21,072 nt of DNA. It comes from Thermoplasmata archaeon (GTDB taxonomy: Archaea > Thermoplasmatota > Thermoplasmata > GCA-020350865). The position numbers and the translations under genes were made by a program. Shown here in pieces: positions 5,569 through 21,072 of the stretch. The stretch is from positions 633,526 to 654,597 of the forward strand of contig CP070672.1 in NCBI GenBank assembly GCA_020351895.1, read 5' to 3'. A model generated the notes under the pieces. The model saw only the letters and a program-made list of their open reading frames with translations. It made no database searches and was not told the DNA's origin. Positions within the stretch are counted from its first letter, which is position 1; every line of letters starts with the position of its first letter.

Positions 5569-5627
5569 GAATGGAATGTTTTGGTGGTAAAAACTGTTTT
5601 GACAGACCTTTATTTCCATTCTAAAAG
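5561..5627. terminator. Inverted repeat over the ends of two convergent genes
   Basis: CTTTT-TA-AGAATGGAA (5561-5576) pairs with TTCCATTCT-AAAAG (5614-5627) as a 9-bp plus 5-bp stem with a 2-nt bulge. It includes the last codons of the regulator and of the 372-residue gene. In either direction it would fold in the RNA near a T-run, so it may serve as a shared bidirectional terminator or 3'-end stabiliser. Confidence 0.5.
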
Positions 5628-6728
5628 TAACTTAACCAGTTCGTTATGATTTCCCTGGTTTATGTAATTGGTATTAACAACTACGTCCAAGATTTGTATT
5701 CCAAGATTCTCTTTCTTAAAAATCTGAATAGATTCCTTAGCTAGAAGAAACGAAATGGGGTCATTGTTGAAACTTATTGAGTCCAATACGAACTTTTCAC
5801 TGATTTTCTTTATTTCTTTGATAAGCTTTGCATCGTGCACTATATTCATAATATCGGTTAAGTCGGGATCATCCGGATTGATTTCGTCCAAAAGCGAGAG
5901 AAAAGGTCTATTATCCTCCATTATAATAGTTGCTTTCGATTCCATGAATCTCGCGATCTTCAGGTTAAGGATAAATAAACTTTTCATGTCAGCCGCCTCA
6001 AAATCCAGTTTTTTGATGAACTTAGATGCAACTGCAGATACGGCTTCTTCCTGCTTGTTTGTGATGTTGCCACCCTCTATGGAGTAACTCTCCACATCAC
6101 CTGCTCCAAGGTCTTTAAAATCTTCAAAGGCCCTTTTCTTCTCCTCTTCATGTTCACCCAGTGGGGATATAACGATCACATGATTTTTATCTTCGTCTTC
6201 AGGGATAATAGAGGTGACTACGAATCCCCTTTCACTAGTATAAGGTTCACCGATTTCCTTGGTTATAGTCTCCATCTCCATTGCTGTGCTTTCATCATCC
6301 CCTTCCACTAGTCCTTCGAGGAATTTCTTCGCTACATCGGGATTGGATATTACAGTTTCCATCATCTCTCTCATCCCTTTATATACATCTTCTGTCTCAA
6401 CCTCCAATATCTCCTCTAGCAAAAGAGCACCACAATCGCTACATTCTTCCTCATCTGCGTAGACCGTTCCTTTGCAGAAGGGGCATTTGAACTTCTCGGT
6501 TGGGACTTCCTCTTCCTTTAAGCTCAAGAATTGGGAGAGTATTTTGTAATTGAGGATATCTACCAATCCTTTTTCCTTTGCCTCATCATCCAATGTGAAT
6601 TCCAGAAATTCACGAAGATGCTTAAATCCAGTATTGTACAATTCTGTTGCCTTTTCGATGGTAACATCAGGTATGCAAGTGAACTCTATTATAGCCCGTT
6701 CCTTTTCTTTGATTTTCACAATATCCAA
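5610..6728 (-). CDS. Helix-hairpin-helix-like, zinc-ribbon protein of unknown function (372 aa)
   Basis: The product is soluble and acidic. Residues 14-68 look like a helix-hairpin-helix-type domain (IPDVTIEKATELYNTGFKHL, then ILNYKILSQFL). A zinc ribbon follows with C82, C85, C96 and C99 (CPFC and CSDCG). The middle (about 105-220) is acidic with a short beta-like segment FVVTSIIPEDEDKNHVIVI (169-187). The C-terminal ~140 residues are helical, without a motif I know. The long frame opens at TTG 6728; a GTG three codons in (6719) is an alternative, and a TATA-like box on the minus strand (6741-6750) would place the transcript start almost at that GTG, suggesting leaderless translation. The HhH plus zinc ribbon combination recurs in the 1360-residue protein downstream. 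The function is unknown; nucleic-acid binding is an inference. Confidence 0.8.
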   Translation of the reverse strand: MDIVKIKEKERAIIEFTCIPDVTIEKATELYNTGFKHLREFLEFTLDDEAKEKGLVDILNYKILSQFLSLKEEEVPTEKFKCPFCKGTVYADEEECSDCGALLLEEILEVETEDVYKGMREMMETVISNPDVAKKFLEGLVEGDDESTAMEMETITKEIGEPYTSERGFVVTSIIPEDEDKNHVIVISPLGEHEEEKKRAFEDFKDLGAGDVESYSIEGGNITNKQEEAVSAVASKFIKKLDFEAADMKSLFILNLKIARFMESKATIIMEDNRPFLSLLDEINPDDPDLTDIMNIVHDAKLIKEIKKISEKFVLDSISFNNDPISFLLAKESIQIFKKENLGIQILDVVVNTNYINQGNHNELVKLLLEWK

Positions 6729-7048: not shown

Positions 7049-10000
7049 ATGTGGGCTAGTAAACACAATAGAAATCATGACTCTATCAATAGAATTCTTT
7101 CTGTGATCATGGCAATTTTCTTACTCTTTGGAGGATTGTTTTCCTTTATTTCTCTCTTTGTTCCAGAGAGCCTACCGAATGCTGGAGGTACAATCAGGAA
7201 CATCTTTTTTGACGATATGGAGGCAGGAGGACATGCAAATCAAGGCAATTGGACCACATTTGACATCATCGCCATGATGCCCCCACAACAAAGTGCCAGT
7301 AGATGGGAGTTAGGAGTACCTGCACCACCCCCTGATGCCTATTCTCCCACAAATTGCTGGGGTACGGAGTTATCAGGAGCGTATGCGACACCCACTGAAT
7401 ATCTGTTAATCACACCCATAATCGATTTGACCTCAGAGGCGATAAAAAGCGCGCAACTATCTTTTTGGCATATCTATTCATTTGCCTCCGGAGATGGTGG
7501 TTGGGTTGAGATAAATTCTAGTAGCACATTCAGAGGTGATTTAATACATCCTAATGGTGGTTATACCGGGTTAGTAAATTCAATAATGGGAGCTAATCCA
7601 GGCTATAATGGAACCATAATGTCTTGGAATCCCGCAAGTTTTGATATCTCGGCCTATATAGGCCGAACATTCCAGATAGGATTCCGCTTCTGTGGTCTTA
7701 TGGGGGATATGTTTTCTCGGGGTTGGTATATCGACGATGTGAAAATAGATGTTGAATGGCTGGACAGCCCGTTAATCGGTCCAGACCAAACAGGTATAGG
7801 ACTTGCAGGCGAGACCCTATCCTATACACTCAACATAGTCAATTATAATCTGGTTCCCGATTATATCGACATTCATTACATAGATACCGAGGGTTGGAAT
7901 GTCCAGGTACTCAACGCCACCAAACTGCAACCCTTGGAGGATAACGGTGGAATATTTGGCTTGCCAGATGTTTTTCTCTATCCCGAGGAATCCATAGATA
8001 TCGTGGTGAACATAACCATTCCTTTGGGGGTCATTGAATGGGATGTTTCAGATTTTACTACCATTTACGCAACATCATTTAACAATTCCAACTATGATAC
8101 CGCCGAGCTTGTTACTAAAACGCCCTTTCCTGACGTTGGTGTGGTTTCCTTAAATATGCCATCAATAGGGGGTGTCGGCAACACCGTTGTGGTTGATGCG
8201 GTAGTAAAGAACCATGGTGATTGGACCGTGAGCTTCGATGTTGAAGGAGTGATTTCGGCAATGTTGATCAACCCGCCATCCACAATGGAGCCATCGATAC
8301 AAATGATCTCAGATCTTGCTCCAGGGGAAACCGCAAATCTACAATGGACCTTTATCCCAACAGTTGCCTGTGATTACACTTTCACTGTAACATCTTTACT
8401 TGATATCGATCAAGTAATATCCAATAACAGATCCTCGAAAACCATATCTATTAAAGACATGTTGTGGGTGGACGATATGGAGACTGGGGGCGATGCCGCC
8501 AGCGGGTTGTGGGCAAGTTTTGAAACCAGCGGTTACAGCTTCCCCACCCAATGGGAGCTGGGAACCCTATTTGGGCTTGTGGGTCCTAGGTCAGCTCCTT
8601 CGCCAATAAACTGCTGGGGTACGGATCTGGACTCTACCTACCTGGAGGATACCGATTGTTACCTATTCACTCCCGCTCCTTCTGCATTTGATCTAAGAGG
8701 ATATTCCGAGATTAAATTGATCTTTAATCATTGGTGGCAAATCCAGGATACACCAGCCGGCGATAATGGTTATATAGTATATTCATACGATTCCGATCCG
8801 ATTTCCATACCTAGTATACAGGGCCCGGTCACTCAGTATATAGGTGTTTCTCCTGGATGGGAAAGCGAAGAGCTTGATATGAGCTTTTTAGCAGGTCAGC
8901 CTTATGTCAGGTTTGGCTGGCAACTTCTTGAAGATATCGGGGGCAATAAATTCGAACCAAACCAATGGCCAGGCTGGTATCTCGACGATGTTATGGTCTG
9001 GGCCATGTATGCCAGACCCATGTTGATAATCACCGAGGTGGTGGATAGCGGAGGCGATGAATATATCGAGGTCTATAATGCAGGAACCCTTCCTGCCGAT
9101 GTTTCTGATTATGACATAACCTTGGATTGGGGTTCCTCATATCTTACCTCAGGAACCTGGAATGTCGGGATATTACCCCCAAACGGACATGCCTATTACA
9201 GAATCCCGGCTGGTATTGATGATCTTGAGGATCAGGGTGATACAATAAGCATTGTGAATACCTCTTCTTCTGAGGGATTGATAAACGACCAAATTTCATA
9301 CGGTCAAAAGGGGACTGTACCTGATCCCATTCCCGGGGAGAGCGTATCAAGGTATTGGAATATCACTAAGTATGATGATACATGGGCAAGAGACCCAACC
9401 CCAACAGTTGGCTCGCAAAATGACGGACCCGGCCAAGTTGCCACAAAATATGTAGTACTAAACGAGGTTTTCTTCAATCCAATTTCCCCCTCTGATGCAT
9501 TCATTGAGGTTATGTATGTTGGAGATGAAAACGATCCTGATGTGGATGTTGATGGTTGGATATTAGTGGTAGGTGATTCTGTATTCCCCATACCTCCTGG
9601 CGCATACAGCACGCAACTGAATTATGCAAATCCTTTCTATGTGATAAATGCCAGCATGATACCAGGATTATTCGGCACAGTAGATGTGAATGGGGATAAT
9701 GTTTACCTATACACGGATTCAAGACTGTTTGTGGATGAAGTCGGGTGGAGCAACCCACATGATCCTGATACCTCGATGTCACGATATCCCGACGGATTTG
9801 GAGTACCCCTTCATGGGAAGCCATTTGGTTTGATGGGATATGATGACCAAAGCTCTATTTCTGCGGGATGGGTTTTCAATCGGCCTCCAACCATACCTCA
9901 CATCCTGGCATTCCCCGATCAAACTAAATGGAATTTCCCAGGAGAATATGTCAAGTTCAATCTGACAATAAGAAATCTTCAAGGAGAGGGAGATCTCATA

Positions 10001-12502
10001 GAGATTATAGGAACCAGCACCGCTGGTTGGCTAATTGAGATTTACGATGCACAGGGTATTATCCTGCTTTCGGACAGCGACTTGGATGGCAGTCCCGACA
10101 TATGGGTCAATGGCAATGAGGCTCTCAATATATCGGTTTGGATCTACATCCCGGAAGATTTTCCCATACCCGATGAAGATGATATTACCATTTATATTCA
10201 ATCTGATAATGATGTATTTGTGGGAGATTTTGCATTCCTCAATGTGAAGGTCTATCCGCATCTTGAGCCTTTAAAATCCATAGCCCCGTCTTCCATATAT
10301 GTGGAAGGAACAGGATACGGGGAACAGGCAACAATAACCCTGGAGGTTACGGGTGCGGGCCTTGCCATACCTGGCCAAAGATCCAATGCTGCGGACATTG
10401 TTTTTGTCATCGATGATACGGGTTCCATGGGGGATGTGATTGACGAGCTTAAACAAGCAGTAAACGAATTGGTTGATAGACTGGAGGAAAATATTTCGAG
10501 CCTACGCCTTGGATTGGTGAGTTTCAAGGACTTCCCTGAAATCGATATCGATCAGGACCTAACCTTTGATATGGATGCTTTCAAAAGCGCATTAAATGCC
10601 CTGGAGGCAATCGGTGGTGCTGATGGGCAAGAGGATGCAGATTATGCCCTTGAAACAGCAGCCAACCTTTCCTGGAGGACTGATACCAATGTCACAAAGA
10701 TCATGATTCTTATTACTGATTACGATACCCATGACAACCTGCACCTCACCAATGTAGCAAAATGGGCATACGAAAAAAAAGGTATCCACACAAATACCAT
10801 TGGAATCCCCCATATATTTGGATCACCTCCTGGATATTATGTGCTCCCCGAGGCTGAGTATTGGCTTAAAAGAACTGCCGAGAACGGCAGCGGATATTAC
10901 CGAGAATATGGATTAATGGATGACCTTGTTGACATAATCCTCAACGGAATAATGATGATAGTGCCAACGGTGGATCTTGCAGGGGAAGACCCTGATATAA
11001 CTGACTCTAATCCCATGATAACAGACGTTCTCCCACCTTATATTTCCTATGTCCCTGGCACTTTCTCTATCCCACCTGATAATATCTATGTGAACAGCGA
11101 AAACCGAACCATTCTCCAATGGAATGTCTCGCGCCTTCGAATAGGAGATATTTGGAGAACTTCGTTTAGGATCACGTCATCCGAATTGGGATTGGTGGAT
11201 ACCAATGAATATTTCCTTTCAATAATAGATTATACCCGTTGGGATAACAGCTCCAAAACAAACCTGTTTCCCAGAACCCAAATCTTTGTAAAGTTACCTG
11301 ATCCTCTTCCTCCAAAGCTATTTATAGATATTGTGGACGATTCTGGTGTTCCAAATGGCAAGGGAGACAATATTTTACTATACTGGATACCACCATCCTC
11401 TCCGAAAATAGAATATTATCTTATATACCGATCAGATGATCAGAGGAGTTTCGACTTCACTACACCATGGTTGCGAACCGATGTTTCCGATGACAATGGG
11501 GTTATTCCTCTTCGCACAACCTGGAATGACACAAGGGCAGCTAAGATCGGCGATTTGAATTACAGCCAAGAGGTGTATTATACAATAAGAGCCGTGAACG
11601 TTCTCGGTGAGATGAGCAGCACCAGCAGAACTGTTGGAAAATGGACAAAGACATTCCCTCAAGGAGTCTCCACATTTTCCCTCCCACTAAAATCCTTAGA
11701 GGCCATGAATAATACCACAGACTATTATCTAAATGATATGACCGCAAGATACATCAAATGGATGGACCCTGCAGAGCACATTTGGATGAAACATGGAGAT
11801 GGTGGGGTAAATGATTCACATATGGTGTTAGGAAGGGGCTATGAATGTGCATTCGATTCGCCAACTACCTACACATTCTTGGGTATTCCGGGTGCCATGA
11901 TCAGCTATGATGACGACAGCGGATTTTTTGGATTTGACAAAGCCAATGAAGCAAAGAGCCTTGCATTATCTGTTGAGGCAAACGGAGATGTGAGATTGAC
12001 CTGGGAGGAGCCGGGTGGTATGGATTCTGGAGATTTATATGAGGTGTACTATTCGAATAAAAGGGATGGTTTCTTCGGAATACTAAATGTTGATTACTTC
12101 CCAGCCTGCGCCCCTGTTTACTATGGAAACAATACCGCCACTCATATAAATGCCCAAGCCAACAACCCTGGGACTCAGCTTTACTACATTGTGGTGCCTT
12201 TCAATTCAACAGGTGTAAGGGGTTCAAGCACTTATAGCATGGGAATTTGGATGGAGGGATTCCAATCTCAATATGATTCTATAGGTATACCATTGAAATT
12301 GAGCAGTTACCCCACAGTGGACTGGTACTGTGACAACATTCCTGATACCGTGGGAATCAATTATTATATTGAGGGAGAGCAAAGATGGTGTTGGCATTCC
12401 ACAAGAATGCCAGAAGGAGCCTATGATCCTCAAATGGTGATGGGGGAGGGTTATCAGATATCCACCACAAGTGCTACGAAATTCATATACGTAGGGGTGT
12501 AG
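7049..12502 (+). CDS. Giant multidomain secreted surface protein (1817 aa) with VWA, lamin-tail and fibronectin-like domains
   Basis: Residues 16-38 form a signal peptide or membrane anchor. Visible domains in order: anchor-J/MAM-like jelly roll (51-236; FFDDMEAGG, WELG, NCWGT, WYIDDV); NEW3-like (240-350); CARDB-like (360-467); a second anchor-J/MAM-like domain (471-653; same motifs, WYLDDV); lamin-tail domains at 657-790 and 800-945; NEW3-like (955-1070) with a DxDxDG calcium-type loop at 1009-1017; a VWA domain (1114-1300) with MIDAS motif D1122-x-T-G-S1126 and ILITDYD (1220-1226); a DUF11-like stretch (1308-1395); and fibronectin-like domains at 1423-1530 and 1633-1730, each followed by a related ~83-residue module (1533-1615 and 1735-1817; PLK, MVLGRGY/MVMGEGY). 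There are many N-x-S/T sequons. No C-terminal membrane segment exists. A role in adhesion or the cell envelope is inferred; no protease or glycosidase domain is seen. Confidence 0.88.
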   Translation: MWASKHNRNHDSINRILSVIMAIFLLFGGLFSFISLFVPESLPNAGGTIRNIFFDDMEAGGHANQGNWTTFDIIAMMPPQQSASRWELGVPAPPPDAYSPTNCWGTELSGAYATPTEYLLITPIIDLTSEAIKSAQLSFWHIYSFASGDGGWVEINSSSTFRGDLIHPNGGYTGLVNSIMGANPGYNGTIMSWNPASFDISAYIGRTFQIGFRFCGLMGDMFSRGWYIDDVKIDVEWLDSPLIGPDQTGIGLAGETLSYTLNIVNYNLVPDYIDIHYIDTEGWNVQVLNATKLQPLEDNGGIFGLPDVFLYPEESIDIVVNITIPLGVIEWDVSDFTTIYATSFNNSNYDTAELVTKTPFPDVGVVSLNMPSIGGVGNTVVVDAVVKNHGDWTVSFDVEGVISAMLINPPSTMEPSIQMISDLAPGETANLQWTFIPTVACDYTFTVTSLLDIDQVISNNRSSKTISIKDMLWVDDMETGGDAASGLWASFETSGYSFPTQWELGTLFGLVGPRSAPSPINCWGTDLDSTYLEDTDCYLFTPAPSAFDLRGYSEIKLIFNHWWQIQDTPAGDNGYIVYSYDSDPISIPSIQGPVTQYIGVSPGWESEELDMSFLAGQPYVRFGWQLLEDIGGNKFEPNQWPGWYLDDVMVWAMYARPMLIITEVVDSGGDEYIEVYNAGTLPADVSDYDITLDWGSSYLTSGTWNVGILPPNGHAYYRIPAGIDDLEDQGDTISIVNTSSSEGLINDQISYGQKGTVPDPIPGESVSRYWNITKYDDTWARDPTPTVGSQNDGPGQVATKYVVLNEVFFNPISPSDAFIEVMYVGDENDPDVDVDGWILVVGDSVFPIPPGAYSTQLNYANPFYVINASMIPGLFGTVDVNGDNVYLYTDSRLFVDEVGWSNPHDPDTSMSRYPDGFGVPLHGKPFGLMGYDDQSSISAGWVFNRPPTIPHILAFPDQTKWNFPGEYVKFNLTIRNLQGEGDLIEIIGTSTAGWLIEIYDAQGIILLSDSDLDGSPDIWVNGNEALNISVWIYIPEDFPIPDEDDITIYIQSDNDVFVGDFAFLNVKVYPHLEPLKSIAPSSIYVEGTGYGEQATITLEVTGAGLAIPGQRSNAADIVFVIDDTGSMGDVIDELKQAVNELVDRLEENISSLRLGLVSFKDFPEIDIDQDLTFDMDAFKSALNALEAIGGADGQEDADYALETAANLSWRTDTNVTKIMILITDYDTHDNLHLTNVAKWAYEKKGIHTNTIGIPHIFGSPPGYYVLPEAEYWLKRTAENGSGYYREYGLMDDLVDIILNGIMMIVPTVDLAGEDPDITDSNPMITDVLPPYISYVPGTFSIPPDNIYVNSENRTILQWNVSRLRIGDIWRTSFRITSSELGLVDTNEYFLSIIDYTRWDNSSKTNLFPRTQIFVKLPDPLPPKLFIDIVDDSGVPNGKGDNILLYWIPPSSPKIEYYLIYRSDDQRSFDFTTPWLRTDVSDDNGVIPLRTTWNDTRAAKIGDLNYSQEVYYTIRAVNVLGEMSSTSRTVGKWTKTFPQGVSTFSLPLKSLEAMNNTTDYYLNDMTARYIKWMDPAEHIWMKHGDGGVNDSHMVLGRGYECAFDSPTTYTFLGIPGAMISYDDDSGFFGFDKANEAKSLALSVEANGDVRLTWEEPGGMDSGDLYEVYYSNKRDGFFGILNVDYFPACAPVYYGNNTATHINAQANNPGTQLYYIVVPFNSTGVRGSSTYSMGIWMEGFQSQYDSIGIPLKLSSYPTVDWYCDNIPDTVGINYYIEGEQRWCWHSTRMPEGAYDPQMVMGEGYQISTTSATKFIYVGV

Positions 12503-12635: not shown

Positions 12636-12650
12636 AAATTATTATATAGT
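12636..12650 (+). promoter_or_regulatory. Promoter of the TPR/GTPase operon
   Basis: AAATTATTATATAGT, containing ATTATATA at 12641-12648, lies about 36 bp before the ATG at 12681. A start near 12670 would give a very short leader; the GGTGAGG ribosome-binding site is at 12667-12673. This is the only clear promoter before the four-gene run. Confidence 0.5.
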
Positions 12651-12680: not shown

Positions 12681-14243
12681 ATGGCCTGCTTAAAGTGCGG
12701 TAAGAGCACCGAGCGAGAGGTATATATCTGTAAAAGGTGTGTTGAAGAGGCGAATTCCCAATTTCACCTGGGCAGGAGCACGGTAGTTTGCCCTTCGATT
12801 CTCAATTATCCGGATTTGAGCGGAGCCACCTTATTAAGTGTGGAGGAGGATATAAATCTCGATGCTCTGAACCTTCTTGGTGATATTGCAGAGGATGCGC
12901 ATTATATTGATGCATTATCCACCCAGGTGGAGGATGCCACTGAGGATGATGGTAACAACCTTTTAAAGAAATTTTCCAGAATATTGGCCAATTGCGGACT
13001 TCATCATGATATCGAAGAAAGTCCGCCGCCACTTTTATCCCAGGGTGATTTGGTGCTGGCTGAAGGTGTGCTAAAAGGAGCAGTCAATTTGGAGAGCAAA
13101 TTTCCAAGCCTGTCTGATGCTGAGCTTTATCTCCTTACGGGGAGTTTGTACTACAATCTCAGTACGGCTAACAGCGGAGTTATTCCCATTACAAAGAGGG
13201 AAGACCATTTGGAAAAGGCTGCGGAATATTTCGACAAGGCATTGAGCATAGACCAAGGCTCAATTTCTGCCTGGAAGAACAAGGCCAAGGTCCTCCTTGA
13301 AAAAGGGGAGAACAGCGAAGCAATCGAATGTCTTAACTGGATACTTGAAAACCTCGAACTTCCTGGGGATGATCTCAGTGTTTTGCTTAATAAGGGAATT
13401 GCATTATTGAACTCACAAAATTACGAAGAGGCTTCAAACTGCTTTAATGAGATACTTGATAAGGATCCAGCAAACGTCGAAGCTTGGCGGAAAAAAGGAG
13501 ATATTTTCGCAGAGACAGACAGGTGGGGAGGTGCGATTCAGTGCTATAACGAGGCTGTCAAACATGATCCGAGCAGAGACGATATTTGGATAGCAATCAG
13601 TAAAATCTATATCAGCCATGAGAAATATAAAGAGGCCTCTAATTGCCTTGATGAAGTATTGAGGACTAATATCTGGAGTCATGAAGCATGGTATCTTCAG
13701 GGGGTTGTTTTTTCAAAGATTGGCAGGTGGGGTGCCGCAGTACAGTGTTTGAACAAGGCCCTGAGTATAAATCCCTCCCATATTGAGGCCTGGAAAGCAA
13801 AAGGAGATCTTCTTGCAGGTAGCAATCGATATGATGATGCCCTGGATTGTTACGAAAGAGCCTTGAAGATACAACCCGATAATTTTGAGTTCATCGTTTC
13901 AATAGCAAGAGTCCTAAAATCCATGAAGAGGTACAATGATGCCCTTCAGATCTTTGGGAAAGCTTTGAAGGTCAAAGAAGATATTTCAGAAGCTTGGTAC
14001 GAAATGGGCGACATACTTCAAGAGACTGGGAAGGTATACAAGGCTCTAAAGAGTTTTGATCATGCCCTTAAAATCGATCCATCAATGATAGAGGCTTATT
14101 ATAAGAAAGGACTGACTTTGGAGAAGCTCAGAAGGTATAAGGAAGCACTTCAATGCTACGATAAAGCCTTGGAATTGGATCCAAACTTCGAGAAGGCTTT
14201 GAGGGCTAAGAATGATTGTCTGCTTAAAATGAAGGATAGATGA
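12681..14243 (+). CDS. Zinc-ribbon TPR-repeat scaffold protein (520 aa)
   Basis: The N-terminus carries a small zinc-binding knuckle (C3, C6, C17, C20: CLKC and CKRC), followed by an acidic helical region (about 45-150). From about 163 to 516 come nine to ten tandem tetratricopeptide repeats with the family pattern (AW-KG at the start of helix A, YDDALDCYERAL in helix B, DP at the turn); the last ones, such as RRYKEALQCYDKALELDPN, are near consensus. TPR arrays are protein-binding solenoids. The ATG at 12681 has GGTGAGG 7 nt upstream. The stop overlaps the next gene by 4 bp (ATGA), which implies translational coupling. The repeats resemble those of the next protein, so one may derive from the other or both bind a common partner. 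No enzyme activity is seen. Confidence 0.88.
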   Translation: MACLKCGKSTEREVYICKRCVEEANSQFHLGRSTVVCPSILNYPDLSGATLLSVEEDINLDALNLLGDIAEDAHYIDALSTQVEDATEDDGNNLLKKFSRILANCGLHHDIEESPPPLLSQGDLVLAEGVLKGAVNLESKFPSLSDAELYLLTGSLYYNLSTANSGVIPITKREDHLEKAAEYFDKALSIDQGSISAWKNKAKVLLEKGENSEAIECLNWILENLELPGDDLSVLLNKGIALLNSQNYEEASNCFNEILDKDPANVEAWRKKGDIFAETDRWGGAIQCYNEAVKHDPSRDDIWIAISKIYISHEKYKEASNCLDEVLRTNIWSHEAWYLQGVVFSKIGRWGAAVQCLNKALSINPSHIEAWKAKGDLLAGSNRYDDALDCYERALKIQPDNFEFIVSIARVLKSMKRYNDALQIFGKALKVKEDISEAWYEMGDILQETGKVYKALKSFDHALKIDPSMIEAYYKKGLTLEKLRRYKEALQCYDKALELDPNFEKALRAKNDCLLKMKDR

Positions 14244-17200
14244 GTAAAAGGTCGAAAGATGCGATACTAGAGATGATAGAGTTGGAAAAAGAAATGTATG
14301 AAAAAAATGAACTTGATACACATCTTATAGACGCAGTTAACCGAATGGACAGTGAAGGATTCAGATCTTTCGCAATTAAATTAATATCTTCTTTGGGCCT
14401 AGAAGCGATATCCCACGATTTTATGGGAGAGAGTGCAAATATAGAGGCTAAGGTGGGGGAAAAAATACAGGATGCCGAGTATCCAGTCTATAATATAAGA
14501 ATTCAGAGGAAGAGGGATGTGATTGAACCTGAGATCCTTCAGGAATTCATTGCAGAACAAAAGGGTAAGGATAGAGGAATGATATTTATCACAACCTCTC
14601 GCTTTACAGACGATGCAAAGCTGTATGCGAAAGAATTTGAAATAGATATCGTGGATGATGCATCATTGGTTGCTATTATGCGAAAATTCGACCTCGTGCG
14701 CGATGTTATGACATACAAGGATTCCAAGATTCTAAAAACAGAAATAGGAAGGTTTCTTCCCAGTATTGACAGGCTAGAAAATATAATGGAATCAGGAAAT
14801 AAGGCATACATTAATAAGGACTATCCTGAGGCCTTGAGATATTTTTCAAGGGCTACTGAATTGAAACCAACTTATGACACGGCATGGTATATGACGGGTG
14901 TGATTTTAAACGATTTGGAGAGGTACATTGAGGCCTTGGATGCATTCATGAAAGCACTAGAAAGTAATATCGAGAATGAGAAAGCCTGGTACAGTATGGG
15001 TTTGGCCCTGTTCTCTCTCGGTAGATTCGATGAGGAACTTGAGTGTTATGATAAGGCTATTGAATTGAAGAGGGACTTTTTAAGTGCTTGGAACAACAAG
15101 GGCGCTACACTGCTTCAGCTGGAAAGGTTCGAGGAAGCGATTACATGTTATGATGAGATTTTAAAACGAAATGATAACTTCAAAATGGCCTGGAACAACA
15201 AAGGGTTGGCACTTAAGAAATTACGGAGGACAGACGAAGCAATGGATTGCTTTAACAAGGCCATAAGAATAGATTCCAATTACATAGATGCTTGGATGAA
15301 TAAAGGATACTCACTTTTGGACGCGAGGCGATACAAAGAGGCATATCATTGCTTCGAGACCATCTTGGTCCTGGATGCCAATAAGTTATCGGCTCTTTAC
15401 GGTAAAGGAAGGGCTCTGGAGGGTATTGGCCAGTACAGCGAGGCTGTAAAGTGCTATGAAAGGATAATTACCATTGATTTGGGTTTTAATGCGGCTAAAC
15501 GGCGAAAAAAGAAGGCCACCAAATCTTTTGAGCAGAAGGGGGACTCACTTCTAGATGAAGATTTCTTCGACATAGGGGCAGAAATGGCATTGGAATATCA
15601 GGTCACATCACCTGGTGGAGAGAAGGGAAGAATCCTCGTTGAAAAGAAAGTGTCATTACCGCAAGTAATTGAGGTGGAGTCTAAAGAGATGAAAGAAGAC
15701 GATATCGAGGTTTTAATGGAGCGTGAATTAGAGGAGGAAATCAAAGGTGTAAAGGATTGGATAGAAAAAGAGCGGAGTGATATTGGAAGAAAAACTCATG
15801 AATTAGCAGTTAAAGCAAAGGCAGTGGAAAAAGAGGCACAGGAATACAATGAAAGACAAAGAGAGCTTGAAGAAAAGTGGAATGAATTAGAGCGAAGTGA
15901 AGAAGAAATCAGAGAGACAACTCTTGCCCTGACAGAGGAGAGGAAAGCAATTGAAAATGATAGAAGAGCCCTTGAAAGAGAAAAAAATGAGGTGGCGAGA
16001 CAGGCTCAAGCCGTAACGAAGGCTAATAAGAACATGACGGCAAAGGAAAGAAATTTAATCTCAAGGGAAGAGGAGATGAGAAAGCGTTATGAAGCCTTGG
16101 AAAACAAAGAGAAAGACATATCCCTTGACGAGAATGACATCAAGTCCGCAACAATGATTCTTAAAGAGGAGAGAGAGGCATTGGAAGATGAGAAAGAAGC
16201 CATTAGAAAAGAGAGGGAGGCCTTTGATAATGAGAAGGAAAAGGTTGCTCGGCAAGTTGAGGCTTTAGCACAGGCGAGAGAAAAGATGTCATTAAAAGAA
16301 GATACGATACGTACCAAAGAAGAGGAAATGAGAGAGTATGATGAGGGTATTGAGAACAAGGTTGATGAGCTGACCCGAAAGGAGAGGGAACTGGAAAATG
16401 TTGCGGCTGAGCTAAAAAAACAGCAGCAAGATATAGAAGTGCAGATGAAAATTCTAAGGGATAAGGAAAGAAGCCTTCAAGAAGATATGAGACTTCATGC
16501 TGAGAGGATTTCGGAAGAAGGAAAGGATCAGGGGCAGGAAGAATTTGAGGAACCTGAAACAGAAGGGAGGGTTGAAGAGGAAGAGGAGGTTGAAGCCGCT
16601 TTACAAGAACTGTTGAAGGCCGGTGATTTGGCAAAAAAGGAGGAGGCGGTGATTGCAGAAGCACAAGAGGAAGTCATGGCGGTTACAGAAGGGGAAGGCG
16701 TTTTGGATCAGGCTGAAGAGATATTTGAACCCATGGAAGAAGAACCGTCACCGAGTATCATGCCTTTACCAAAAGAGGGGATGGAAAAGGGTTTGGCTAT
16801 TGAGGAAATGACGGCATTTAAAGAAATACTCGCATATTACAGCCTGGAGTATTTTGATGATGCCTTGGAGAGCATAGAGCAATCTCTACGGGATGGTTTA
16901 AAATCTAAACTTCTTTGGAACTTGAAGGGGAATATTCTTCGAGAGAGAAAACAACTTGAAGAGGCCATGGTCTGCTACGATAGTGCCCTTAATTTGGACC
17001 AGAATAATATCATCACTTTGACTAACAAGATGTCGCTGAGTTCCGATCTTGGAAGAAATGAAGAGGCTCAAAAATGCTGTAAAAGGATTCTCGCCTTAAG
17101 GCCAAATGATAGGATGTTTTTCCTTCAGAAAGGCCTTTTAGAGGTGAAAGCAGGTATGATTGATGAAGCCATTTCCACAATCGATAATCTACTTAATATC

Positions 17201-18322
17201 CATGATAATCTGGAGGTAGCCTGGAATCTTAAGGGGATCCTTTTACAGGGCCAGAACAAGGATGAAGAGACAATATATTTCTATGAAAAAGCATTGGAGA
17301 AAAATCCAGAGTATGCCACGGCATTAAACAACAAAGGGGTTATGCTTTTTCATTCTAAAAAATACGAGGAGGCCCTGGATTGTTTTAACAAGGCTCTCGA
17401 GTTCATGCCCAATGATCTTATTGAACGTAACAAAAAGGCTACCCTCCTACATCTGGATAAATCCGATATTATCGAAGATCAAATGGAGCCGGAAGTAACA
17501 GATAAGGAAATTGAAGGATTTATCGAAACAAGAGATCCCTCTGAGGTGATCGATGAAGCAATTAGCGAGTTAGAAAAATTCCCCGAGGCCCAAGAAGAGG
17601 TTGTAAAGGAGGAAGAGAGCGGTGGGGTTGCCTCCCTTTTCATGTGCCCCTCATGCGGGGCTTTCGTCAGTGAATCTGCAATAAAATGCGAAAAATGTGG
17701 TTATGACTTCGAAGAAGAAATGGAGCATATGATTGATGAAAAAGGTGAGGAAGGGATCGAGGAAAAGACCGAAATGGAGGTTTCGGAAAGGCCAAAGGAG
17801 CAAGTTAAGGAAGAGATTATTGGAAAACCCAAAGTGGAGGTTGAGGAAGAAATCAAGAAACCAGTTAAAAAGGAACAAAGGGGGAAGCCCAAGGAAAAGG
17901 TGGAGAAGGAATTAGAGAAGAAATATAAAGTTAAGGCAAATAAGGAAATCGAAAAAAAGGCCAAGATGGACACTAAAAAAGAGCAAAAAGATAAAGTTGA
18001 GAAAGATATTCATAAGAAACCTAAAGAGAAGGTTAAGAAGGAAATTATTAAAAGACCAAAAAAGGAAAAAATGAAGGTACCAAGAAAGGAACCCCCTAGG
18101 AAGGCTAAGAAGCCCACCAAGGAGGAAACTATATCAAAACTCATGGGTATTTCAGGTGTGGGCAGATCGAAAGCTGAAGCATTGTATGATGCAGGTTACA
18201 GAAGTTATGATTCCCTAAGAAAAGTTTCCATATCAGATCTATCAAAAGTCAAGGGAATTGGGAAAAACCGGGCCAAAGATATTAAAAACTGGCTGAAAAT
18301 TAAAAAACTCAAGGATGATTAA
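14240..18322 (+). CDS. Mrr-type nuclease-like domain fused to TPRs, coiled coil, zinc ribbon and HhH (1360 aa)
   Basis: Domains in order: an Mrr/restriction-endonuclease-like domain (about 33-152) with Q89-R-K91 (the QxK signature strand, IRIQRKR), a possible acidic partner E69, and the typical GMIFITTSRFTDDAKLYA (113-130) and IDIVDDASL segments; about seven TPRs (181-425); a long charged coiled coil (about 485-760); a Glu-rich spacer (765-850); about six TPRs (856-1068); a zinc ribbon with C1136, C1139, C1150 and C1153 (CPSCG, CEKCG); a Lys/Glu-rich linker (1160-1292); and a C-terminal double helix-hairpin-helix (1294-1352; GISGVGRSKAEAL, VKGIGKNRAKDI). HhH and zinc-ribbon parts suggest DNA binding; TPRs and coiled coil suggest scaffolding and self-association. 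Whether the nuclease domain is active is unclear, because the usual aspartate is not obvious. It overlaps the upstream TPR gene by 4 bp and precedes the first GTPase by 32 bp. Confidence 0.85.
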   Translation: MSKRSKDAILEMIELEKEMYEKNELDTHLIDAVNRMDSEGFRSFAIKLISSLGLEAISHDFMGESANIEAKVGEKIQDAEYPVYNIRIQRKRDVIEPEILQEFIAEQKGKDRGMIFITTSRFTDDAKLYAKEFEIDIVDDASLVAIMRKFDLVRDVMTYKDSKILKTEIGRFLPSIDRLENIMESGNKAYINKDYPEALRYFSRATELKPTYDTAWYMTGVILNDLERYIEALDAFMKALESNIENEKAWYSMGLALFSLGRFDEELECYDKAIELKRDFLSAWNNKGATLLQLERFEEAITCYDEILKRNDNFKMAWNNKGLALKKLRRTDEAMDCFNKAIRIDSNYIDAWMNKGYSLLDARRYKEAYHCFETILVLDANKLSALYGKGRALEGIGQYSEAVKCYERIITIDLGFNAAKRRKKKATKSFEQKGDSLLDEDFFDIGAEMALEYQVTSPGGEKGRILVEKKVSLPQVIEVESKEMKEDDIEVLMERELEEEIKGVKDWIEKERSDIGRKTHELAVKAKAVEKEAQEYNERQRELEEKWNELERSEEEIRETTLALTEERKAIENDRRALEREKNEVARQAQAVTKANKNMTAKERNLISREEEMRKRYEALENKEKDISLDENDIKSATMILKEEREALEDEKEAIRKEREAFDNEKEKVARQVEALAQAREKMSLKEDTIRTKEEEMREYDEGIENKVDELTRKERELENVAAELKKQQQDIEVQMKILRDKERSLQEDMRLHAERISEEGKDQGQEEFEEPETEGRVEEEEEVEAALQELLKAGDLAKKEEAVIAEAQEEVMAVTEGEGVLDQAEEIFEPMEEEPSPSIMPLPKEGMEKGLAIEEMTAFKEILAYYSLEYFDDALESIEQSLRDGLKSKLLWNLKGNILRERKQLEEAMVCYDSALNLDQNNIITLTNKMSLSSDLGRNEEAQKCCKRILALRPNDRMFFLQKGLLEVKAGMIDEAISTIDNLLNIHDNLEVAWNLKGILLQGQNKDEETIYFYEKALEKNPEYATALNNKGVMLFHSKKYEEALDCFNKALEFMPNDLIERNKKATLLHLDKSDIIEDQMEPEVTDKEIEGFIETRDPSEVIDEAISELEKFPEAQEEVVKEEESGGVASLFMCPSCGAFVSESAIKCEKCGYDFEEEMEHMIDEKGEEGIEEKTEMEVSERPKEQVKEEIIGKPKVEVEEEIKKPVKKEQRGKPKEKVEKELEKKYKVKANKEIEKKAKMDTKKEQKDKVEKDIHKKPKEKVKKEIIKRPKKEKMKVPRKEPPRKAKKPTKEETISKLMGISGVGRSKAEALYDAGYRSYDSLRKVSISDLSKVKGIGKNRAKDIKNWLKIKKLKDD

Positions 18323-18354
18323 CAGTTCATAACACAAGATTAGGTGTGATAGAA

Positions 18355-19209
18355 ATGACCGAAGTTAGGGACTTGATGAAGAAGATGTGCGTGATCGGTG
18401 AAGCAAGTGTTGGAAAGACAAGCCTGATTCGCCGGTTCGTGGTGGATAAATTCGATGATAAATATATTGTCACAATTGGCACAAAAACCTCAAAGAAGAT
18501 CTTAAATTTCAAAGATGGTGACACCAGTGTCAATTTAAAATTGATAATCTGGGACATTCTTGGGCAAAGAAGCTTTCCCAAGCTTAAGGAATCGGCTTTT
18601 AAGGGCTCGAATGGGGCCTTTATAGTTTTGGATCTATCAAGGAGGGAAACCCTGTACGCATTTGAGGGTTGGCTTTCATCTCTCTACAAGGTGGTGGGTG
18701 AGATTCCAGTGATCGTTCTGGCTAATAAGAACGATTTAAAGGGGGAGTTCGGCAAGGAGGAGATAGATATGCTTGTCAAGGACTATGGTTTTCCATATTA
18801 CTTAACCAGTGCCAAGACTGGGAAGAATGTAAACGATGCTTTCTATACCCTGGGAAGAATGATGCTTAAGCCCTCGAAGGAAAAGAAAATCGGGCCAGTG
18901 CTTGAAAAGTCCAGGGCATTTAAGATGGAGATCGATAAAGAGATAGACCCAGACAGGAGATTCACAATATTAGAGGTTGAGGATATAATCATGACAAGGT
19001 ACTGCGAGCTTCTTGAGGACCCTGAGTATGCCATGGCTATCATCAGAGCACAATTCAAAAGAGCAGATCTGGATTTCAGAAATCCTTCAATTGAGGGTCT
19101 TAAACAGGTTGTTGATTTCCTTATCAGTGCCGCCGCAGATCAGGTAGAGTCATCACGGTTGGATAAAGAAGGAATAGTTTATGCGAATTTGATAAGAAGA
19201 ATCGGTTGA
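18355..19209 (+). CDS. Ras-like small GTPase with helical C-terminal extension (first of a pair)
   Basis: The GTPase fold spans about 8-165: P-loop GEASVGKTS (15-23), switch-I threonine in VTIGTK (40-44), G3 WDILGQ (66-71, Ras uses DTAGQ), G4 NKND (124-127) and G5 TSAK (151-154). It resembles Rab/Ran-type Ras-superfamily proteins (RRFVVDKFDDKYIVTIG). All nucleotide-binding motifs are intact, including the catalytic-type Gln 71. The remaining ~115 residues form a charged linker and a helical extension (about 205-260; EDPEYAMAIIRAQFKRADLD). No lipidation cysteine is present. I choose ATG 18355, preceded by GGTGTGAT 4 nt upstream; a GTG at 18346 lies inside that site. It follows the nuclease-like gene by 32 bp and is paralogous to the next gene. 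Confidence 0.92.
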   Translation: MTEVRDLMKKMCVIGEASVGKTSLIRRFVVDKFDDKYIVTIGTKTSKKILNFKDGDTSVNLKLIIWDILGQRSFPKLKESAFKGSNGAFIVLDLSRRETLYAFEGWLSSLYKVVGEIPVIVLANKNDLKGEFGKEEIDMLVKDYGFPYYLTSAKTGKNVNDAFYTLGRMMLKPSKEKKIGPVLEKSRAFKMEIDKEIDPDRRFTILEVEDIIMTRYCELLEDPEYAMAIIRAQFKRADLDFRNPSIEGLKQVVDFLISAAADQVESSRLDKEGIVYANLIRRIG

Positions 19210-19217
19210 AGAGGCAG

Positions 19218-19231
19218 AATATATATTAAAA
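19218..19231 (+). promoter_or_regulatory. Possible internal TATA box before the second GTPase
   Basis: AATATATATTAAAA lies in the 42-bp gap between the GTPase genes, centred 26-27 bp before the ATG at 19252, the spacing expected for a leaderless archaeal transcript. The AT-rich gap could also be simple spacer, and the gene has a GGTGTGAT site for coupled translation. Confidence 0.3.
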
Positions 19232-19251
19232 TTAAATTGGTGTGATTGACC

Positions 19252-20091
19252 ATGACCAATCTAAAAGAAATTCAAAAGAAGATCATTCTTCTCGGTGATG
19301 GGGCGGTGGGAAAAACAAGCCTAATTAGAAGGTTTGTTGTGGACAAATTCGATGATGAGTATATCGTTACAATAGGCTCGAAAATCACTGCAAAGGATCT
19401 ACAGATGAATGTGGATGGTGGGATGATCTACCTCAAGCTCCAAATTTGGGATATACTAGGTCAGAAAGGGTACACAAAACTGCATAACTCCAGTTTTAGA
19501 GGAACGGATGGAGTATTCTTTGTAGCGGACATAACGAGGAAAGAGACCCTTGAGAACTTGGAGAGCTATTGGATCCCAGAAGTTCAAAACATAGCAGGCA
19601 CGGTTCCTTTCGTTATAATGGCAAACAAATCCGATCTTATAAGAAAAGCGGAATTCAATGAGAATGAACTGAAATCATTTGCATCCAAACACAAGGCGCC
19701 TTTCTACCTTACGAGTGCTAAAAGCGGCGAAAATGTGAAAAGAGCATTCGAAGCCATTGGTCGAAGAATGCTTAAACTCTGGGTTGTAGAGCCTCCAAGA
19801 CCCACTGAAACTGGGCCGATGGATGATAAAGTAAGCGATATTTCCATAGTAATCGACAAAATAATGGACGATTTTTGCCAAGAATACGGTGATCTAGAGG
19901 ATGCGATGCCTGTTTTGAGAAAACAATTCGAACTTGCAGAGTTGGATCTCAACCACCCCACTGAAGAGGCCTTAAGAAGGGCTGTTGGAAGATTGGCGAT
20001 GATCGAAAAAGGCTATAAGAAAAAGGAAATTGCAGATATAAATTATAATAAAAGGATCAAATGGATAGAAGGAAAAGAAACCCAATCATGA
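19252..20091 (+). CDS. Ras-like small GTPase with helical C-terminal extension (second of a pair)
   Basis: This 279-residue paralog keeps all G motifs: P-loop GDGAVGKTS (15-23), VTIGSK (39-44), WDILGQ (66-71), NKSD (125-128) and TSAK (154-157). The segment KTSLIRRFVVDKFDDEYIVT is almost identical to the first GTPase, and the DNA there is also close, so this is a tandem duplication. The C-terminal helical extension (about 185-250; LEDAMPVLRKQFELAELD) aligns with that of its neighbour; the last ~30 residues are basic. ATG 19252 is preceded by GGTGTGAT 5 nt upstream; the TTG at 19246 that would add two residues overlaps that site. Two diverged GTPases side by side may act as a pair or on different partners within the operon. 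Confidence 0.92.
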   Translation: MTNLKEIQKKIILLGDGAVGKTSLIRRFVVDKFDDEYIVTIGSKITAKDLQMNVDGGMIYLKLQIWDILGQKGYTKLHNSSFRGTDGVFFVADITRKETLENLESYWIPEVQNIAGTVPFVIMANKSDLIRKAEFNENELKSFASKHKAPFYLTSAKSGENVKRAFEAIGRRMLKLWVVEPPRPTETGPMDDKVSDISIVIDKIMDDFCQEYGDLEDAMPVLRKQFELAELDLNHPTEEALRRAVGRLAMIEKGYKKKEIADINYNKRIKWIEGKETQS

Positions 20092-20303
20092 AAGATCCCA
20101 AAGCTCGAAACGAAAAAATCACCTTCAATGTCAAATTCATTATTAATGCATCATTGTATTAGGATATAGACCTGCTAGTGAATCATCCAGTGTACAATTT
20201 TTCTTCCGCTTTTTGATAATCAAACATGATTTTCTAGTCAAAAGTTTTAATCAATTTTAGTAGCTATGATATGTACGGCTATTATAACATATAAACAGTG
20301 GTT

Positions 20304-21072
20304 ATGAGCGAAGAAAATGGGGAAAAAATAGCACCGATAAAAGTTAACGAATCAGAAAATGCCATTGGGATCAATTCAATTGTAATCATAATCAAGCATT
20401 TAATAGGTCGAGGCCAAAAGATGCTCAAAAGTTGGACGAAGAAGGTGTATTCCCTCTGCTTAATCTTAATGCTCATTATATCCCCTCAAATTTCCATATT
20501 TCTTTGGAATGGGAAAGAATTAGCAAAAGGCGCAACACTTTTAGATCCCATGGCGACAATAACGGGTCCGGATGATGAAAGCAGATTTGGATGGAATGTA
20601 TCCTGGGTAGGAGATGTGAATGGTGACGGGTATGATGATATCATTGCAGGGGCGCCCTATAACGACGCAATTGTGGGGAACTGGTGGGATTTAAATTGGA
20701 TGTATCGCATGAAACTGACATTCAACAACAGCGATCAAACTGAAACTCTACAGGATTTTCCGGTTCTAGTGAATCTAAGCTCAATAAATATTGATTATGG
20801 AAGGTTAAAGCCAGATGGGACGGATTTGAGATTCGTTGACGCGGATAACCAAACTGAGCTAAAATATCACATTGAAGAGTGGGATATCTCGGGATACAGC
20901 TATGTTTGGGTGAATGTTACGGAAATTCAAGGCAGCCCATCATCGGAACATATCTGGATGTACTACGGAAATTCGGATGCCTCCAATGTTCAGGATGTCA
21001 AGGGAACCTACGATGGTAGTTTTTCCGGGGTGTGGCATATGAATGAAACCTCAGGGATACACTTAGATGCCA
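20304..21072 (+). CDS. FG-GAP/DUF2341/LamG-type surface protein (N-terminal part, runs off the right edge)
   Basis: An open frame of 256 codons from ATG 20304 reaches the window end without a stop. Residues 40-68 have signal-peptide shape (MLKSWTKK followed by VYSLCLILMLIIS). A short FG-GAP (integrin-alpha-like) repeat follows at about 82-112, with FGWNVSWVGDVNGDGYDD and its DxNxDGxxD calcium loop. A DUF2341 domain covers about 121-230 (WMYRMKLTF, DFPVLVNL, LRFVDADN, HIWMYYGN), and GVWHMNE begins a LamG/concanavalin-like domain. Such chains are seen in archaeal cell-surface proteins that bind sugars or other surfaces. ATG 20421 (M40) would make the signal peptide N-terminal and is a strong alternative start; the 39 residues before it would be cytoplasmic. 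The ligand is unknown. Confidence 0.8.
   Translation, partial: MSEENGEKIAPIKVNESENAIGINSIVIIIKHLIGRGQKMLKSWTKKVYSLCLILMLIISPQISIFLWNGKELAKGATLLDPMATITGPDDESRFGWNVSWVGDVNGDGYDDIIAGAPYNDAIVGNWWDLNWMYRMKLTFNNSDQTETLQDFPVLVNLSSINIDYGRLKPDGTDLRFVDADNQTELKYHIEEWDISGYSYVWVNVTEIQGSPSSEHIWMYYGNSDASNVQDVKGTYDGSFSGVWHMNETSGIHLDA

Follow-up and report, generated by a model that had tools for sequence, protein, structure and literature searches.

A gene cluster joining an old tetratricopeptide-repeat pair to two Rab-like GTPases in a Thermoplasmata archaeon

Within a 21,072-bp stretch of a Thermoplasmata archaeon genome (assembly GCA_020351895.1, contig CP070672.1; this whole stretch is hereafter the window), four same-strand genes encode two proteins built on tetratricopeptide repeats (TPRs) and two Rab-like small GTPases. 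The four-gene set is real, but it has two histories: genes 1 and 2 form an old pair, which the GTPase genes joined late. Our preferred reading, which we hold tentatively and place a little short of evenly balanced, is that the GTPases form a switch pair that would act through the TPR scaffold, probably under control from the membrane.

Gene layout and the two histories of the cluster

12681..14243, + strand: gene 1, 520 aa, N-terminal zinc ribbon and TPRs (open reading frame (ORF), Pfam and direct reading)
14240..18322, + strand: gene 2, 1360 aa, overlapping gene 1 by 4 bp (ORF, Pfam)
18355..19209, + strand: gene 3, 284 aa, starting at an ATG, Rab-like GTPase, 32-bp gap after gene 2
19252..20091, + strand: gene 4, 279 aa, starting at an ATG, second type of Rab-like GTPase, 42-bp gap after gene 3
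12642..12648, + strand: putative TATA-like element TTATATA ahead of gene 1 (direct reading)

The ORF coordinates agree with a preliminary description of this DNA as four same-strand genes with a 4-bp overlap and two short gaps; the gaps are exact with genes 3 and 4 starting at the ATGs listed, and the 284-aa gene 3 homologues use an equivalent start. That description had also placed the genes behind one clear promoter. A single TATA-like element does precede gene 1, but the AT-rich ATATATATTAAAA upstream of gene 4 could serve as a second, internal promoter. The ribosome-binding-like GGTGTGAT occurs twice, ahead of gene 3 and ahead of gene 4. Gene 1 is, as described, a zinc-ribbon TPR protein (Pfam TPRs, and a CxxC..CxxC ribbon from residue 3 by direct reading), and genes 3 and 4 are both Ras/Rab-like GTPases by Pfam (Ras family), with complete G1–G5 motifs and the catalytic Gln in WDILGQ.

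To find relatives of gene 2, we scanned a single genome of each species for a peptide pattern of the gene 2 N-terminus, R(F/Y)LPS(I/V/L)(D/N/E)(E/R)LE. This matched 36 stretches, 29 of which encode a relative; their records are named Thermoplasmata, Thermoplasmatota, Methanomassiliicoccales, Proteinoplasmatales or just Euryarchaeota archaeon. In 28/28 testable loci (those with upstream sequence; L028 begins inside gene 2), the gene directly upstream on the same strand is a TPR homologue of gene 1, which overlaps gene 2 or stands at most 67 bp from it. At L003, L010, L011, L018 and L019, the homologue was read from the locus, as the script, which skips same-frame neighbours, found no upstream ORF; at L019, the position at which gene 2 starts is ambiguous. 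The zinc ribbon at the start of gene 1 recurs in 25/28 loci, the exceptions being L013 (5′ end open), L020 and L021, where none was seen. Of 145 genomes sampled from the phylum to which bin33, one of the two closest genomes, belongs, 15 match the gene 2 N-terminal profile, 7 of them through its last positions. bin33 and five of the other six have gene 1 upstream; the exception is G127 (L053), where the gene 2-like protein lacks the LPS..LE motif and the upstream 107-aa ORF does not match gene 1.

GTPases of the gene 3/4 family, by comparison, occur in the flanks of 2/29 gene 2 loci, a lower bound given that many contigs are short. Both loci belong to the closest relatives: in bin33 (L002), three GTPases directly follow gene 2, and in bin396 (L001), one GTPase and a 96-aa ORF resembling just a GTPase end do so. 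The gene order that the preliminary description proposed to look for in relatives thus gives a mixed outcome, kept throughout for genes 1 and 2 and, for the GTPases, in the two closest relatives. Genes 1 and 2, which overlap in most cases, form an old pair, present at 28/28 testable loci against 2/29 for the GTPases, and we therefore place the addition of the GTPases in one clade.

The adjacency of gene 2 and GTPases in both closest genomes is more than chance. In a protein search, 6/10 close gene 2 orthologues share a contig of exactly equal size, which we read as the same contig, with at least one of the 120 GTPase matches listed out of 792. These six are the bin396 and bin33 proteins and four metagenomic ones (P0122, P0125, P0128 and P0131, with GTPases P0041, P0031/P0039, P0032 and P0029, respectively); P0124, P0126, P0127 and P0129 have no equal-size contig among the 120 listed. 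At the genome level, 7/7 genomes with the full gene 2 N-terminal profile have a GTPase match, compared with 45/145 overall, weak matches included (hypergeometric 2e-4, uncorrected for kinship). Such matches also occur in all 14 genomes covered among those of the 29 loci (1 to 39 each). The pair and a single GTPase are also found in the genome of a relative with a 1,486,778-bp contig. bin396 and bin33 themselves hold 31 and 39 GTPase-profile matches, of which 25 and 34, respectively, score more than 100 bits. The proposed co-occurrence of gene 2 and GTPases therefore holds from the side of gene 2 but not from that of the GTPases, for reasons given below.

The GTPase pair might instead have landed behind genes 1 and 2 in a GTPase-rich clade and stayed there by synteny, as neighbours without a joint function, which we consider rather unlikely. 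Adjacency at 2/29 loci and a GTPase number that varies from cluster to cluster (three; two; one and a remnant) fit such an origin. It sits poorly with the order kept in both closest genomes, with the four further orthologues on contigs of equal size with such a GTPase, with the short gaps and the repeated ribosome-binding-like site, and with the genome-level co-occurrence.

The surroundings of the pair are partly shared as well. Upstream genes at the bin33 locus match those of the window, namely Methyltrn_RNA_2, an ArsR-like regulator and a zinc-ribbon ORF (5610–6728, − strand). The last encodes a 372-aa protein with no Pfam family above cut-off, to which the counterpart in the equivalent position in bin33 is 62% identical. 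Between this ORF and gene 1 lies a gene (7049–12502) whose 1817-aa surface-protein product has VWA and lamin-tail domains; the C-terminal part of this protein was matched upstream of gene 1 in bin396 and not at the bin33 locus. A third TPR gene follows gene 2 at L005, L008 and L009; that of L005 has an N-terminus that appears SAP-like by eye.

The Mrr-like fold of gene 2

Gene 2 encodes, in order, a degenerate Mrr-like fold, a TPR block, a charged helix-like region, a second TPR block, a zinc ribbon, a Lys/Glu-rich linker and an HhH domain:

14339..14680, + strand: Mrr_cat fold match, residues 34–147 (Pfam 34.1 bits, cut-off 21), without the catalytic D-(E/Q)xK
17645..17710, + strand: zinc ribbon, residues 1136–1157 (Pfam and direct reading)
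18137..18286, + strand: HhH domain (HHH_5), residues 1300–1349 (Pfam E=3.9e-12)

The TPRs, zinc ribbon and HhH domain of the preliminary description stood up, but its Mrr-like domain is a match of fold only, and its coiled coil is a region judged charged and helix-like by composition. Mrr-type (PD-(D/E)XK) nucleases carry the catalytic motif D-(E/Q)xK. From 12 places in related genomes that match Mrr, we aligned L084, L085, L086 and L093, together with P0222, as controls. All five keep the catalytic D and (E/Q)CK, whereas gene 2 of the window has N in place of D, and R and Q in the E/Q and K columns. L090, outside the alignment, also has EID and ECK, and among the 7 remaining places, L089 and L091 are gene 2 homologues. 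In an alternative and most generous register, the full motif appears in 2/35 sequences, and the window is not among them. A search of solved structures with the Mrr region returned one true Mrr relative, 1y88 (E=0.0099), ranked under COMMD10 matches that we took as chance, and a shorter Mrr-region profile gave nothing useful against the same structures. Gene 2 therefore resembles Mrr-family restriction endonucleases in its fold-level sequence match and differs from them in lacking the catalytic residues; because these residues are missing, we conclude that the fold was probably retained for binding, not for cutting. One of the controls, L084 of bin396, combines an intact Mrr domain and a P-loop region (GDYGTGKT) in a single chain and is possibly a defence protein.

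These results bear on the suggestion that the cluster is a defence system of the Mrr restriction or DNA-quality type, with GTPases as its switch. The Pfam Mrr_cat match above cut-off and the C-terminal HhH domain would suit such a system, yet the catalytic residues are gone and the matches to PADLOC are weak: genes 2 and 4 have none, the TPR region of gene 1 has a best match of 36 bits (PrimPol) and also matches the unlabelled PDC-M16B, and gene 3 has a 19-bit P-loop match. No PADLOC defence model fits the four genes in system arrangement. The full gene 2 N-terminal profile occurs once per genome in the eight genomes where it is present (8/8), flanking genes are common, by eye, to the gene 2 loci of G048 and G082, and 31 pattern matches in viral contigs include no relative. 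We therefore dropped the nuclease and defence roles floated in the preliminary description, on the absent catalytic residues and the weak PADLOC matches, and regard a defence system as highly improbable.

Nearly as improbable, in our estimation, is a chromosome organiser in which the HhH domain and Mrr-like fold bind DNA, the charged region and TPRs bridge, and the GTPases gate assembly. The HhH domain, the degenerate fold and the long charged region count in its favour, and there is a weak match to SMC-like proteins (E=0.0015, 16.3 bits, far under cut-off). That match is probably compositional, however, no ATPase head is present, and the gene 2 relatives at L003 and L051 show no match to the HhH domain of the window.

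Rab-like GTPases and longin-type surface proteins

18967..19206, + strand: C-terminal helical domain of gene 3, four predicted helices (AlphaFold2 model, mean predicted local distance difference test (pLDDT) score 69.5)
20298..21072, + strand: 5′ part of a surface-protein gene (FG-GAP, DUF2341) that runs past the end of the window (ORF, Pfam)

The closest solved relatives of gene 3 (the search was made for gene 3 only) are Rabs, a Thorarchaeota Rab at 98.8 bits followed by Rab32 and Rab21, and its predicted model matches Rab1b and Rab8a. Its C-terminal helical domain has no Pfam match above cut-off. Five stretches match just this domain of the GTPases. One C-terminal-domain-only stretch, G002:C1:4117783-4118115, is followed by a longin-type domain approximately 4.4 kb on and by a 182-aa GTPase without the helical domain 5 kb on. 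Neither gene 3, which ends after the helical domain, nor gene 4 has a C-terminal prenylation Cys; parts of PMC4915359 describe archaeal Rab-like proteins as generally without such cysteines.

Clusters of these GTPases mix two types, that of gene 3 (type 3) and that of gene 4 (type 4). At the loci examined, Gln occupies the catalytic position in 9/9 type 4 GTPases. Type 3 copies beside gene 2 (window, L001 and L002) have it in 4/4 cases, against 0/5, with Leu or Val instead, in the three surface-protein clusters L066–L068; these numbers are small, the short GTPase of L079 (Gln), a poor fit to both types, is excluded from them, and the wider set has Gln in 81/130 type 3 sequences. This hints that scaffold-linked type 3 copies may hydrolyse GTP normally. 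The difference, on few sequences, also speaks against mere neighbourhood, which in turn draws on the same GTPase types clustering elsewhere beside surface proteins.

Each of those clusters (L066, L067 and L068, from bin33 and bin396, with six, three and three Rab-like GTPases) comes immediately after a gene for a giant surface protein. These proteins have a hydrophobic stretch and share a cytoplasmic domain. The family of this domain is predicted to be longin, with a beta-beta-alpha-beta-beta-beta-alpha-alpha order. We had first labelled the domain beside the GTPases roadblock-like, a label set aside on the element order of the model and on VIA-align, both of which favour longin. None of the 8 window proteins scanned with Pfam matches a roadblock family; Pfam also missed the longin-type domain of the relatives. 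In bin33, 326 bp after the cluster equivalent to that of the window, a 3605-aa protein with Ig-like repeats ends in a longin-type domain. In the window, the ORF from 20298 shares 40.6% identity over 128 aa with the surface protein beside the six-GTPase cluster of bin33, a link to longin-bearing surface proteins that is weak because its surface domains recur in other clade proteins.

bin396 and bin33 together have 31 longin-type domains, 5 of which lie within 1 kb of a GTPase, all on the same strand, compared with 0.58 expected (0/2000 shuffles); this count left out 7/70 GTPase-profile matches of the two genomes (five C-terminal-domain-only, two partial). Among the matches listed, six more neighbours within 1 kb share the strand (G006, G008, G012, G013, G014, G094) and four have the opposite orientation (G007, G008, G009, G035). 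P0257, a membrane domain running into a GTPase, was not used as a fusion, as it breaks inside the domain and has no contig.

A further arrangement was observed in nine genomes (L032, L033, L035, L036, L038, L043, L047, L074, L076), where a GTPase gene is directly followed by one for a V4R-DUF835-like protein. Pfam support for V4R and DUF835 is limited to L033 and L043, and in 6/9 of these loci the V4R-DUF835-like gene comes after two tandem GTPase genes, one long and one short. V4R is related to TRAPPC3, according to a section of PMC10933270.

The proximity of GTPases and surface proteins raises the alternative that the cluster organises the membrane or envelope, as a Rab/longin-type polarity or trafficking-like machine whose scaffold positions a surface complex, with no role at DNA. 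Some GTPases do adjoin longin-domain surface proteins, surface-protein genes flank the window cluster on both sides, and the nuclease motif of gene 2 is dead. The HhH domain and zinc ribbons of gene 2, however, suggest binding of nucleic acid or protein, and the GTPases lack the prenylation Cys; we judge this alternative unlikely.

A candidate Rab-like switch and its relation to known systems

The preferred reading, a Rab-like switch pair on a TPR scaffold, would work as follows. The longin domain of a surface protein would bind the GTPases and set their nucleotide state, by analogy with roadblock/longin proteins elsewhere; the GTP-bound product of gene 3 or gene 4 would dock on the TPRs of gene 1 or gene 2, as MglA-GTP does on SgmX; and gene 2, with its HhH domain, zinc ribbons and dead Mrr fold, might tether the assembly to DNA or another partner without cutting. 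A broader version, which we regard as possible but doubtful, is that the clade runs a receptor–longin–Rab network with tens of GTPases, some beside giant Ig-type receptors ending in longin domains, and that the window is its TPR-scaffold branch. In this network, the GTPase pair of the window, of which one type has the catalytic Gln in all copies examined while the other has often lost it, would drive an ancient scaffold of TPRs with a dead Mrr fold and an HhH domain.

Several observations weigh against a switch of this kind. The pair stands without an adjacent GTPase in most lineages, most GTPases of bin396 and bin33 lie away from it, and the GTPase-rich genomes G094 and G040 have no gene 2 match, with a weak partial match only in G031. 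On the side of the membrane, no longin domain lies within the window, where the downstream surface gene is cut at the end, and the bin396 surface gene at the matching place gave no longin match in six frames, although it meets a 100-N run near its end. The membrane helix of the surface proteins was called by eye, and the longin model is moderate (mean pLDDT 72.7) and was built on a relative, not on the bin33 protein. Furthermore, 26/31 longin-like domains lie more than 1 kb from any GTPase, and widening the distance to 10 kb weakens the excess (9 versus 3.6 expected, 20/2000 shuffles), with some domains that share a gene counted as independent in the shuffles.

We have filed the system among prokaryotic Ras-like GTPase switches. 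Actinobacterial conservons are reportedly operons of a sensor kinase-like protein, a roadblock protein, a DUF protein and a Ras-like GTPase. They are alike in combining a sensor, a roadblock-class protein and a GTPase in an operon; unlike them, the present set shows no kinase-like sensor and has two GTPases, TPR scaffolds and, in bin33, a giant Ig-type surface protein.

The nearest worked-out analogue is the Myxococcus xanthus MglA-GTP/SgmX couple. Sections of PMC7668184 report that MglA-GTP binds TPRs 12–14 of SgmX, and MglA/MglB-SgmX shares with our set a Ras-like GTPase, a roadblock/longin-class partner and a TPR-built effector. In contrast, the GTPases here are Rab-like, no MglB-type gene was seen in the cluster by Pfam, the longin-type domain is inside a surface protein, and the scaffolds add zinc ribbons, an HhH domain and an Mrr-like fold.

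Discussions of Rab-like GTPases and longin domains usually treat them as the Asgard precursors of membrane traffic in eukaryotes. Asgard archaea share with the present genomes Rab-like GTPases in tens of copies, and longin and V4R partners (parts of PMC10933270 and PMC4915359). As described in a portion of PMC10933270, the GTPase genes of MK-D1 generally share no operons with roadblock, longin or TRAPPC3 genes, whereas several GTPases here, outside Asgard, stand in apparent operons with such partners. An earlier survey lists one Rab-like protein each for 'Thermoplasmatales archaeon' and Aciduliprofundum sp. (excerpts of PMC4915359), and another describes the Rup and MglA families (excerpts of PMC4316618). 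Rup and archaeal Rab-like GTPases share the canonical G1–G5 motifs with ours (same excerpts); the GTPases of bin396 and bin33 differ from those of the earlier surveys in their 31 and 39 profile matches, their C-terminal helical domain and their tandem clusters. The preliminary description could not match the arrangement to a described system, and neither did we find a description in the literature searched, outside which most subscription papers fall.

Taken together, Rab-like switches behind a scaffold pair and longin-ended surface proteins suggest an undescribed signalling system outside Asgard. A passage of PMC4917890 asks whether operons will reveal the targets of archaeal GTPases. The apparent operons described here name candidate partners outside Asgard, a longin-bearing surface protein and a TPR scaffold; if the broader network reading is true, an operon-wired Rab/longin toolkit would exist outside the Asgard archaea.

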